NCBI GenBank assembly: GCA_015065285.1
Contig: SVQP01000007.1
Location: 1 to 64,000 of the forward strand
Reading direction: 5' to 3'
Source: Oscillospiraceae bacterium
GTDB taxonomy: Bacteria > Bacillota > Clostridia > Oscillospirales > CAG-272
Length of the DNA stretch: 64,000 nt
Below are positions 1 through 62,293 of the stretch, piece by piece. The position numbers and the translations under genes are program-made. Each line of letters begins with the position of its first letter. The first letter of the stretch is position 1. Below the pieces are notes generated by a model. It ran no database searches. It was not told the origin of the DNA and saw nothing but the letters and a program-made list of their open reading frames with translations.

Positions 1-364
1 ACATACATTACTACAACAACGAAAGAATTTCTCTTAAACTAAAAGGAATGAGCCCAGTGCAGTACCGAGCTCATTCGCAAACAACTTAATATTTAATTTT
101 TGTCTAAACTTTTGGGTTCACTTCATTTACGGGGGGATATTTATTTGTCAAAATCAGACATACATTGCAAATATGGCAAAAAAACATTGTTGTAATGCTT
201 AAAAATCGCGTTCAATAATTGTGCATATAAACAAAAATATTCAGTTATATGCGAAAATTCTTATGTAACTATTGCAATTTGAAATGGCGTGTGCTAATAT
301 GTTAACATACCCATATTTGAAATATATGGGTAAATTCGAAGATCTTTGGAAAGGAATTCACACG

Positions 365-3277
365 ATGAAAAAGTTGCTTGTTTTGCTGGCACTTTGCATG
401 GTTCTGTCTGTGGTTCTGGTAGCATGTACCGAAGATACCCCCACCGATGAGACCACCGATGTGACCACCGAAGCCCCCGGTACCGATGCTCCTACCGAAG
501 CACCCGGCACTGACGATCCCACTGAGGGAACTACTGAATCTCCCACTACCGAAGAGCCCACCACCGAGGCTCCCACCACCGAGGCTCCCACTACCCAAGA
601 GCCCACCACTGAAGTGCCCGTTCCGGATCCCGATCCCGTAACCACCCACCTGTCCTTCGACGAGCTGGATAAGTGGATCGACATCAGCGGTGACATCACC
701 AACAGCGCAAACTCCCTGGGCAGCATTTTCACTCCCGGTCAGTCCGCAGGTTGGGATAAGATCGCAACCGTAGACGACTACACCATCGCATACCTCAGAG
801 TATGGGGTTGGGTAGGCTTCTTCGCTGAAGAAGTTGGCGAATTCGGTTACCAGATCGACGATCAGGACCCCGTATTCTCCGCTGATTTCGCTGTTGTAGC
901 AGGTCAGGATGTTGTTCAGGCTGCTGCAGGCACCGGCGCTAAGTGCGCTTCCAGAATGACCATCATGATCCCTGTCAGAGACCTGTCCGGTGAGCACACC
1001 ATCAAGGCTCTGGTTAAGGATGCTGCTGGTACCATCGAAGAGCTGACTGTCTTCACCCTGAACAAGGCTGTTGACCCCGATGCTCCCGTATTCATGCTGA
1101 CTCCCGCCGTTATCGCTGCCACCGGTACCGGTGCTCCCGACGTTGCTTCCGCAACCATCAGCGAGGATGGCGCTTACGTTACTCTGGTAAACGGCACTGT
1201 TGGTGACCCCTACATCACCTTCCGCCAGATGGGCTGCAACGTTCGTTACGTAGCAGTTAAGTACCGCACCACCGTTGCAGGCTCCGGCTTCAACTTCTTC
1301 GCAGCTTCCACCGGTAACGACGCTACCGGTCAGGGCGACCAGCTCGCAGGCCAGAGCTATGAGGCTGACGGCATGTGGCACACCGTTGTAACCGACCTTG
1401 ATCCCGCAGAAGCTATCAACGAAGAATGGGCTCTGTCCTTCCTGCGTTACGACTTCTACACCAACGGCACCAACCAGGCTATCGACGTAGCTTACATCGC
1501 AGGCTTCAACTCTGCCGAGGCTGCACAGGCTTACTTCGAAAAGACCCTTCCTGCACCTGATCCCGGTGCCATTACTGCTCCCGCACAGACCTTCACACCC
1601 GAAACCTTTGCACAGCCTACGATCGAAGAGATCAAGGCAGGCTATACCTATGACATCGGTGCAGGTCAGTTCTTCCCGACCATTGCGGGTGACTGCACCT
1701 ACGCTGATCTGACCCAGCTTAGCGAGGACGCACAGGCTGCTCTTCAGGCTGCAGGCTTTGGTCAGTACGCTTACTATGCTAAGGATCACATCAGCATCGC
1801 TCCTCCCATGACCGGTGAGAAGCTGATCGTGACCATGAAGGTATTTGACGTTCAGGGCAACATGAACAATACGAACTTCCTGCTGCTCAACATGACCGGT
1901 GGTCAGCAGAACAGCGCGCAGGTCAACCCTGTTGTCGAGGCTGATCCCGAGATCGCAGGTCTGTACACCTATACCTTTACCGAGATCGTTCCCGGTGGCA
2001 CCGATGAGTTGAAGTTCTACATGACTGAGTCTCTTGGCTTCTACGTTGCATCCGTTTACGTAGAGGTCTACATTCCCGGCGAAGACCCCAACTTTACCAA
2101 CCTGAACTTTGATTCCAACATAGCCGGTAACTTTGAAAATAGCCAGGCTGACCTGGATCCCAGCCGGTCTGACCTTGCAAATCTGTTCGATCAGATGGTT
2201 CATGCAGCAGGCGATCCCATGGTTGTTGCATATAATGGCGGCAACTCCTTCTACCGCGTTGCGGGCTTCAGTGCAATCCACACCCGTCCCAGCGGCAACT
2301 ATGCATTTACGATCAACGTAACCGGTACCGCGGGCACCGAGGGCTTTGCAGGCTGGTTTGTTCGCGGCTTCCAGCAGGCTGTTGAAGAAAAGAACTTCTA
2401 CGGTGGCGACGGTAACGATAACGGCGGCGTCAGCTACGGTGGCTCAGGCATTTACCTCAACTACTTCGCAAGAGGCCTTGGCCACGTAGTTCGTATCAAT
2501 ATCAAGACCTATGAAAACGGCGTATGGATCCCCAACATTTATTACGTATCTGTTGAAAGCTCCGAAATTACCGTTGTGGATGATGGTACGGTAGTAACCA
2601 TTCTTGCAGGCGGCAAGAAGGTTGCAACCATTGAGATCTTTGGTACCAAGGACTACGGCATCGACGGCGTTGCTGCAGATGCTCTTGCAGAAAAGGTTGT
2701 TCTGACTCTGGCTGACGGCACTGTTGCAGAGCTTGCAAATGCAGCTGTTGCAGCTTCTGTTCGTTCGTCCGATCTGGGTGTTGCAACCAGAACCGGTGTC
2801 ATCGAGTTCAACCGCATATCCCTCAAGCCCGCTGAGTCCGTTGAAATTCCTGCAGATTTCTATCTGCCCGAAGAGAAGGACAACTTAGCAGAAGGCAAGC
2901 CCGCATCCGCTGACAGCGTTGAAAACGATACCAATATTGTATCCAATGCAACCGACGGCAACGCCGGCACTCGTTGGGGCGCAACTCCCACCGGTGAGGC
3001 AAACCTGATTGTTGACCTGGAAGCAGTTTACACGCTGGAGGAGATCGTTGGATCTTTTGAGAATGCAGGCTATGACTATGAGGTTTCCGTTTCTGTTGAT
3101 GGTGAGAACTATGAAGTGGTTCACTCCAGCGCAGCACACGGCGGCATCGTTGTAAGAATCCCCGTAAACGTTGATGCGCGTTACATCAAGTTCACCCGTC
3201 TGGATGACTCCGCTCACCCCGGCTCTCACTGGTTCTCTCTGTGGGAGGTTTACGCTTTCGGTACGCTGAAGGCATAA
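365..3277 (+). CDS. Large secreted lipoprotein with T/P/E-rich linker and C-terminal F5/8 type C (discoidin-like) domain
   Basis: Start re-set to ATG at 365 (MKKLLVLLALCMVLSVVLVAC, lipobox); PTTEA-type repeats; C-terminus NLAEGKPASADS...DGNAGTRWGA...ARYIKFTRL is discoidin-like. Confidence 0.85.
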   Translation: MKKLLVLLALCMVLSVVLVACTEDTPTDETTDVTTEAPGTDAPTEAPGTDDPTEGTTESPTTEEPTTEAPTTEAPTTQEPTTEVPVPDPDPVTTHLSFDELDKWIDISGDITNSANSLGSIFTPGQSAGWDKIATVDDYTIAYLRVWGWVGFFAEEVGEFGYQIDDQDPVFSADFAVVAGQDVVQAAAGTGAKCASRMTIMIPVRDLSGEHTIKALVKDAAGTIEELTVFTLNKAVDPDAPVFMLTPAVIAATGTGAPDVASATISEDGAYVTLVNGTVGDPYITFRQMGCNVRYVAVKYRTTVAGSGFNFFAASTGNDATGQGDQLAGQSYEADGMWHTVVTDLDPAEAINEEWALSFLRYDFYTNGTNQAIDVAYIAGFNSAEAAQAYFEKTLPAPDPGAITAPAQTFTPETFAQPTIEEIKAGYTYDIGAGQFFPTIAGDCTYADLTQLSEDAQAALQAAGFGQYAYYAKDHISIAPPMTGEKLIVTMKVFDVQGNMNNTNFLLLNMTGGQQNSAQVNPVVEADPEIAGLYTYTFTEIVPGGTDELKFYMTESLGFYVASVYVEVYIPGEDPNFTNLNFDSNIAGNFENSQADLDPSRSDLANLFDQMVHAAGDPMVVAYNGGNSFYRVAGFSAIHTRPSGNYAFTINVTGTAGTEGFAGWFVRGFQQAVEEKNFYGGDGNDNGGVSYGGSGIYLNYFARGLGHVVRINIKTYENGVWIPNIYYVSVESSEITVVDDGTVVTILAGGKKVATIEIFGTKDYGIDGVAADALAEKVVLTLADGTVAELANAAVAASVRSSDLGVATRTGVIEFNRISLKPAESVEIPADFYLPEEKDNLAEGKPASADSVENDTNIVSNATDGNAGTRWGATPTGEANLIVDLEAVYTLEEIVGSFENAGYDYEVSVSVDGENYEVVHSSAAHGGIVVRIPVNVDARYIKFTRLDDSAHPGSHWFSLWEVYAFGTLKA
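541..615 (+). repeat. In-frame 15-bp tandem repeat encoding PTTE(E/A/Q/V) linker
   Basis: Five consecutive PTTxx units (PTTEE PTTEA PTTEA PTTQE PTTEV). Confidence 0.8.
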
Positions 3278-60953: not shown

Positions 60954-61115
60954 ATGGCTAATGACGTAAGAGTCAAGGTAACTCTGGCATGCACCGAGTG
61001 CAAGCAGAGAAACTACAACACCAAGAAGAACAAGAAGAACGACCCTGACAGACTCGAGCTCAAGAAGTACTGCAAATTCTGCCGCAAGCACACTCTTCAC
61101 AGAGAAACAAAGTAA
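60954..61115 (+). CDS. rpmG: 50S ribosomal protein L33 (CxxC type)
   Basis: [53 protein letters not shown]. Below the track's length cutoff. Confidence 0.93.
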
Positions 61116-61131
61116 TCTGGGGGGAGAGATA

Positions 61132-61734
61132 ATGACTGCTTTTAACACAAGAAGAAACCTCTTAGCTCTTTTGCTTGCAGTTGTTCTCGCTTGCTCTCTG
61201 TTCACCGTAGGCGTTTTCGCAGGTGAGGAATCCACCACCACCGCCGCAGAGGAAACTACCACTGCAGCAGAGGAAACCACTACCGAAGCAGAGACCACTG
61301 AGGGTGAAACTACCGAGGCAGGATCTACCGAAGGAACCACCGCACAGGGTACTACCGAAAAGGAGTCTGAAGAGACTACCGAAGAGGATCCCTGGTATGT
61401 ATCTATGTGGCTCGACAATAACAACAAGCTGAACGTACCCAAGATTATCGTTTGGGCGCTGGTTGTTCTCGGTCTGATCGCAGGCGTTGTATTCTGCATT
61501 ATCAAGAGAGAAAAGGTTGGCGAATTCCTGCGCGCTCTGAAGAGCGAGAACAAGAGAATCGTATGGAGCTCTTGGAAGGACACCCGCAAGAACACTCTGG
61601 TTGTTCTGGCTGTGGTTATCGCAATCACTCTGATCATCGCACTGTTCAACTTTGCACTTGAGATGATTCTGGGTGGATCTAAGGCAAGCTTCGGAACAAG
61701 CCTGCTTGACCTGATCGTATCTCTTTTCAAGTAA
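61132..61734 (+). CDS. secE: SecE-like preprotein translocase subunit with signal peptide and Thr/Glu-rich N-terminal extension
   Basis: Position between rpmG and nusG; core EFLRALKSENKRIVWSSWKDTRKNTLVVLAVVIAITLIIALFNFALEMIL; N-terminal LLALLLAVVLACSLFTVGVFA + TTE repeats + additional TM. Confidence 0.8.
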   Translation: MTAFNTRRNLLALLLAVVLACSLFTVGVFAGEESTTTAAEETTTAAEETTTEAETTEGETTEAGSTEGTTAQGTTEKESEETTEEDPWYVSMWLDNNNKLNVPKIIVWALVVLGLIAGVVFCIIKREKVGEFLRALKSENKRIVWSSWKDTRKNTLVVLAVVIAITLIIALFNFALEMILGGSKASFGTSLLDLIVSLFK

Positions 61735-61750: not shown

Positions 61751-62293
61751 ATGAGCGATATCGATGCTATGAACGTTGGCCCAAGATGGTATGTGGCGCA
61801 CACCTATTCGGGTTACGAAAACAAAGTTAAGACCAGCCTTGAAAAAATCGTTGAAAACCGCGGCTTGGGAGATCTGATTTTTGATGTCAGAGTTCCTGTA
61901 GAAACCGTCGTGGAAAAGAGCGGAAGCGAAGAAAAGATCACCGAGGTCAAGATCTTCCCCAGCTACGTGCTGATCAAAATGGTCATGACCGATGAATCCT
62001 GGCACGCTGTCCGCAACATCACCGGAGTCACCGGCTTTGTCGGACCCGGATCCCGTCCTACTCCTCTGACCCCTGAAGAGGTCGAGGCGCTGAACATTGA
62101 AGAGGTCAAGGTAAAGCTGTCCTTCAACGTAGGCGACACAGTAGAGGTTGTCAACGGCCTGTTCGAAGGCTACAGTGGCGTTGTCCAGTCTATCTCGGAC
62201 GACCTGAAAAACGTTACGGTACTCGTTAAGAGAGGTCGCCGTGACATGCCTGTCGAGCTTGATGCATCCATGATCAAGCCGGCAAATCAGTGA
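61751..62293 (+). CDS. nusG: Transcription termination/antitermination factor NusG
   Basis: PRWYVAHTYSGYENKVKTSLEK; FPSYVLIKMVMTDESWHAVRNITGVTGFVG; C-terminal KOW GDTVEVVNGLFEGYSGVV. Confidence 0.95.
   Translation: MSDIDAMNVGPRWYVAHTYSGYENKVKTSLEKIVENRGLGDLIFDVRVPVETVVEKSGSEEKITEVKIFPSYVLIKMVMTDESWHAVRNITGVTGFVGPGSRPTPLTPEEVEALNIEEVKVKLSFNVGDTVEVVNGLFEGYSGVVQSISDDLKNVTVLVKRGRRDMPVELDASMIKPANQ

Follow-up and report, generated by a model that had tools for sequence, protein, structure and literature searches.

The 64,000-nucleotide stretch of DNA analysed here (the window) carries a secE gene whose product is about three times the usual length and probably has the architecture of a cleavable secretory preprotein. 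We put the probability of this reading, cleavage included, at roughly 0.75. The gene layout is conserved, evolves in frame and is distributed over at least 18 genera. SecE is among the most conserved small membrane proteins and has been described as having either one transmembrane helix (TM; Gram-positive bacteria) or three (E. coli). The one-TM form has no signal sequence and inserts as a tail-anchored protein (PMC3087755), a 2024 paper describes all Gram-positive SecE proteins as single-TM, even those longer than 140 aa (PMC10903887), and the E. coli protein has three TMs (PMC9360617). A cleavable signal followed by a long outside tail would break this one- or three-TM picture. No description of a SecE with a signal peptide was found in the open-access literature searched, and we regard the long SecE as a variant of a known protein that has good support at the sequence level and a function that is putative.

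Gene, locus and identity of the long SecE

The secE ORF is intact in both the ORF list and the sequence, with an ATG start and 200 codons. It begins 16 nt after rpmG and ends 16 nt before nusG, which is followed by rplK and rplA. The series rpmG-secE-nusG-rplK-rplA runs in one direction and constitutes the standard secE locus, confirming the position between rpmG and nusG given by the first-pass annotation, and nusG lies downstream of the long secE in relatives too. A strong Shine-Dalgarno-like sequence, GGGGGGAG, precedes the ATG. The product reads, in order, MTAFNTRRNLLALLLAVVLACSLFTVGVFA, the expected cut, GEESTTTAAEETTTAAEE, an intervening stretch, TEEDPWYVSMWLDNNNKLNVPK, TM2, KREKVGEFLRALKSENKRIVWSSWKDTRKN, the core TM and a C-terminal segment ending in LFK (Table 1). 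An antisense ORF across secE is taken as codon-bias noise.

Table 1. Coordinates of the long secE, its parts and its neighbours in the window.
Feature	Position	Strand	Basis
rpmG (ribosomal protein L33), upstream neighbour	60954..61115	+	ORF, sequence, position
GGGGGGAG, Shine-Dalgarno-like sequence of secE	61119..61127	+	Same GGGGGGAG in congeners
secE, long form, 200 aa	61132..61734	+	Pfam SecE and TIGR00964 above cut-offs
Predicted signal peptide, residues 1-30 (n-region RR, h-region, c-region VFA)	61132..61221	+	Ala30 conservation, AxA-type site
Thr/Glu-rich acidic linker, residues 31-85, predicted disordered and extracytoplasmic	61222..61386	+	Composition, AlphaFold
Predicted extra transmembrane helix TM2, residues 105-123	61444..61500	+	Hydrophobicity, AlphaFold, relatives
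Predicted cytoplasmic Lys/Arg-rich amphipathic SecE clamp helix, invariant E139 and W145	61501..61572	+	Pfam, alignment, AlphaFold
Pfam SecE core, residues 131-179, core TM 156-174 included	61522..61668	+	Pfam, TIGR00964
C-terminal extension, genus-specific, short terminal helix	61669..61731	+	AlphaFold
nusG, downstream neighbour	61751..62293	+	ORF; used in tree

The assignment to SecE is supported by two curated families. Residues 131-179 match PF00584 with 42.7 bits (cut-off 22.7, E 5.4e-11), and the TIGR00964 match scores 35.6 bits against a cut-off of 27.55, in agreement with the C-terminal, Gram-positive-type core claimed earlier. The Glu and Trp of the clamp helix, E139 and W145, are invariant across 32 aligned long SecE sequences. 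No second SecE above the family cut-off was found in the window's genome, a MAG that is 76% complete and comprises 69 contigs; SecY and signal peptidase I were likewise not found in it, so that absence from this MAG proves little. Its congener G068, which is 96% complete, has a single SecE, likewise of the long form, together with SecY, SecG and signal peptidase I. A check for another secE, proposed with the first-pass annotation, has therefore returned a single gene in both genomes, and the long form is most likely the ordinary, functional and sole SecE of the organism.

Two side observations were also made. The bin G130 holds two SecE genes, both one-TM, on contigs C49 and C83 (L066 and L065), which may reflect strain mixing in the MAG. 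On contig C51 of G068, an ORF of ~620 aa (L165) combines phosphoglycerate mutase with type I signal peptidase, as seen from Pfam matches to PF10143 and PF01676 (2,3-bisphosphoglycerate-independent phosphoglycerate mutase) and to PF10502 (signal peptidase).

Distribution in relatives and evolutionary history

A family-wide search, together with the fetched loci, identified the same order of parts in 42 SecE genes, that of the window included. The window's family contributes 33 genomes from 15 genera, and a second family of the same order contributes 7 genomes from 3 genera (sampling in other families of the order favoured weak-scoring and long-frame matches, and frequencies outside the window's family are not estimates); the remaining 2 are unplaced MAGs. 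Those records that carry names are MAGs of Clostridia, Ruminococcus and Oscillospiraceae, and most come from ruminant guts. Similar N-terminal extensions, which the first-pass annotation had proposed to look for in relatives, are thus present in at least 18 genera; its description of the protein as unusual holds relative to published SecE proteins, but not in the sense of a peculiarity of one genome. In a class-wide profile search, none of the matches listed except the window's own reached the signal peptide, and the open frames among the matches listed were mostly 60-150 aa long.

Comparison of congeners indicates that the reading frame is maintained throughout the gene. All indels in a frame-blind DNA alignment of four congeners are 3, 9, 12, 15 or 24 nucleotides long, that is, multiples of three. 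Furthermore, pN is lower than pS in nearly all region-by-pair comparisons, those of the linker included (for example, 0.22 versus 0.62), the exceptions being one pre-TM2 and one C-terminal comparison (14 and 25 codons).

Long-form history was examined on a species tree of NusG and RplK from 105 loci (quick IQ-TREE run, SH-aLRT support, midpoint root). The long form occurs in three clusters, a large one that includes the window and two others; one of these belongs to the window's family and is interspersed with one-TM forms, and the other belongs to the second family. Parsimony requires 10 changes of the long form, and at least 4 are forced by well-supported branches; gains and losses are indistinguishable on this tree. 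A single clade of all signal-peptide forms (with the two-TM forms) was rejected (AU p 2e-30), as was a single clade within the window's family alone (AU p 1.6e-4). Differences are seen even within genera. One genus has the full form in L060 and, in L072 and L073, a form with TM2 that lacks the signal peptide and linker, showing that both are dispensable for SecE function; another has the long forms L056 and L058 beside the one-TM form L015. Members with short linkers (L038, L069, L085 and L113) retain the signal peptide. The signal peptide and tail, as judged from these genes, come and go while the core stays.

Other SecE architectures were encountered as well. Proteins of 225-233 aa in which the core is preceded by three or four additional hydrophobic helices are encoded at L074, L075 and L079 (family f22) and at L080 (family f16), and the L074 protein has a weak DUF4293 match below cut-off. 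Two loci of family f22, L082 and L088, encode a one-TM SecE with a T/D/E-rich C-terminal tail predicted to lie outside the membrane, possibly a second route to a tail at the channel exit.

Signal peptide, linker and predicted membrane topology

Only five positions, M1, A30, E139, W145 and V158, are conserved at 90% or more in the 32-sequence alignment, and A30 is the residue before the expected cut (VFA-GEE in the window's SecE). An Ala preceded two places earlier by a small residue lies no more than 3 residues from the first acidic residue in 41 of the 42 proteins, compared with a mean of 16.5 and a maximum of 28 when the 14 residues before the first acidic residue were shuffled over 2000 rounds (custom script; the 42 genes represent many genera and all three tree clusters and, being related, are not 42 independent trials). 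Automatic selection of the cut site is biased towards Ala by design and in a few proteins places the cut within the linker, so the cleavage-site evidence is taken only from the shuffle-controlled test and the alignment column. The n-regions contain on average 2.5 K/R and 0.02 D/E. The features of a signal peptidase I substrate, namely a basic n-region, an h-region and small residues at -3 and -1, are present, and the signal peptidase I domain was matched in 10 of 10 relatives with the signal-peptide type of SecE that were searched, strongly in 9. E. coli SecE, whose sequence matches PDB 5gae chain h exactly, has a TM1 that ends in VAIVGNYLYRD, without a site of the signal-peptidase type. The conserved Ala30, the AxA-type site in 41/42 proteins and the basic n-region bear out the earlier suggestion of a signal peptide with plausible cleavage at VFA-GEE, and we infer that the signal peptide is cleaved from SecE by signal peptidase I.

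The segment that follows is Thr/Glu-rich, net acidic and about 55 residues long in the window's SecE; the low complexity noted in the first pass is upheld, and the term 'mucin-like' stands as an analogy only. Across the 42 proteins the linkers span 15-92 residues (median 69) with a median net charge of -16, and consist of T 23%, E 18%, A 14%, S 11%, D 9%, G 8% and K+R 3%. In contrast, the cytoplasmic tails of one-TM SecE proteins from the same order are K-rich (27%). TTE repeats gave 41 pattern matches in the window's genome versus 2 for the reversed control, mostly after lipoprotein signal peptides or before C-terminal anchors, which marks them as ordinary outside spacers in this organism. 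A large lipoprotein-like protein encoded at 284-3274 of the window has a TTE spacer following its signal peptide. His/Asp clusters that look like metal-binding sites occur in the SecE linkers of L035 (EHEGHDHEE), L037 (EDEHDHDHE), L053 (DGHDHSDD) and L093 (EDEHDHDHS). Candidate roles for the linker are an exit spacer or brush, a sugar or metal site, or nothing.

Hydrophobic 19-mers of the long SecE are located at residues 10-28, 105-123 and 156-174. AlphaFold, run with an 11-sequence alignment, placed helices at 3-29, 104-124, 126-140 (clamp) and 148-179 (core), and disorder (pLDDT <50) at 28-83, in a low-confidence model (mean pLDDT 56, pTM 0.33) that is usable as secondary structure only. 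A Foldseek search with this model returned no match, probably because of its low confidence. The 19-mer at 105-123 and the helix at 104-124 coincide with the additional TM that had been claimed before the core. In 42/42 proteins the 20 residues that follow TM2 are richer in K/R than the 20 that precede it, and this charge bias predicts that the linker lies outside and the clamp inside. The distance from the start of TM2 to the core Trp is 40 residues in the window's SecE, 39-46 in the set and 41 in E. coli, suggesting that TM2 occupies the place of E. coli TM2. Substitution for SecG by the extra helix was rejected as an explanation, since a search of 38 genomes, covering both SecE types, recovered SecG in 37. 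No T/E insert was found in the readable SecY sequences of genomes with the signal-peptide type, and loop differences were modest.

Proposed biogenesis, competing explanations and implications

The first-pass reading as a whole (a SecE with a signal peptide, a T/E-rich outside linker, an extra TM and a Gram-positive-type core) passed every test made. In the explanation that we favour, the signal peptide (residues 1-30) would direct SecE to a Sec channel already in place, signal peptidase I would cut after VFA, the net acidic T/E-rich stretch of ~55 residues would be carried across the membrane, and TM2 would anchor the chain N-out/C-in. The Lys/Arg-rich amphipathic helix and the core TM would clamp SecY as in every SecE. 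Once mature, SecE would span the membrane twice with both termini outside, and its disordered acidic tail would sit at the translocon's exit side. A plain N-out TM would probably not suffice to bring an acidic N-tail of 50-90 residues across the membrane, which would make a signal peptide necessary; in L072 and L073 the tail is ~12 residues long and the signal peptide is gone, which fits a need set by tail length. Most likely the tail would serve at the channel exit as a spacer or brush of the type seen on the organism's lipoproteins, and this spacer role, taken alone, is a tentative proposal.

A different account of the first helix, which we think unlikely, is that it remains uncleaved as TM1, yielding an E. 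coli-like three-TM SecE with an outside TM1-TM2 loop stretched by the T/E linker. The E. coli-like spacing between TM2 and the core fits this account, PDB profile matches to E. coli SecE reach over TM2, and the remaining parts would keep the same topology. However, a near-invariant Ala with a small residue at -3 is unexpected for a plain TM and is missing from E. coli TM1, a helix with a basic n-region is characteristic of signal peptides of the cleavable kind, and relatives possess signal peptidase I. An in-frame ATG 109 codons before the stop could yield a short canonical SecE, with the long form minor or regulatory; this is very improbable, since that ATG has no Shine-Dalgarno-like sequence and internal starts led by such sequences are not conserved in relatives. 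Fusion of a secreted-protein gene to secE by an assembly or sequencing error, which the first-pass annotation had named as one possible refutation and which the fragmented state of the MAG (69 contigs, 76% complete) might invite, is excluded by indels that are all multiples of three and by the recurrence of the layout across at least 18 genera, in MAGs independent of one another.

A further alternative concerns function only and is compatible with the preprotein architecture. The linker may be functionless, T/E repeats having expanded lineage-wide in extracytoplasmic segments and been tolerated here after the gain of the signal peptide and TM2, and we give this a substantial chance of being right. 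Linker length varies from 15 to 92 residues with composition alone kept, TTE repeats are common in the genome (41 versus 2 in the reversed control), and two species of one genus lack the signal peptide and linker. Arguing against it are the lower value of pN than of pS within the linker (for example, 0.22 versus 0.62), the retention of the signal peptide and TM2 by most members of the main cluster, and the recurrence on the species tree of acidic, K-poor, signal-peptide-led tails, beyond what drift would easily produce.

The preprotein form shares parts with three known systems. With Gram-positive one-TM SecE (59 aa in B. subtilis; SCO4646 in S. coelicolor) it has in common the clamp helix, the core TM, the rpmG-secE-nusG order and membership of TIGR00964/PF00584, and to these it adds a further TM and a predicted signal peptide followed by an outside tail; where that class has a single TM and no signal sequence, three hydrophobic helices and a signal peptide were found. 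It shares with the E. coli-type three-TM SecE (PDB 5gae chain h, 127 aa) the place of TM2, a near-equal Trp spacing and the topology of TM2, clamp and core TM. The first helix of the E. coli protein is uncleaved and followed by a short periplasmic loop, whereas that of the long forms ends in a conserved site of the signal-peptidase type, and 15-92 T/E-rich residues precede their TM2. In the window's genome, lipoproteins and anchored proteins bear spacers with the same TTE/TTEA composition, directly after a signal peptide or before an anchor, but these tether extracellular domains, while the SecE tail carries no domain and is joined to the translocon itself.

If the preprotein reading is true, SecE biogenesis in these bacteria needs Sec as well as signal peptidase, and the export channel has an acidic, intrinsically disordered tail at its exit. 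The occurrence of tailed and tailless relatives, even in one genus, allows a direct test of the role of the tail. More speculatively, in several uncultured lineages of gut Clostridia a cleavable SecE would mean that each new channel needs a working channel and signal peptidase, and the T/E brush at the exit may act on emerging proteins or on the wall.
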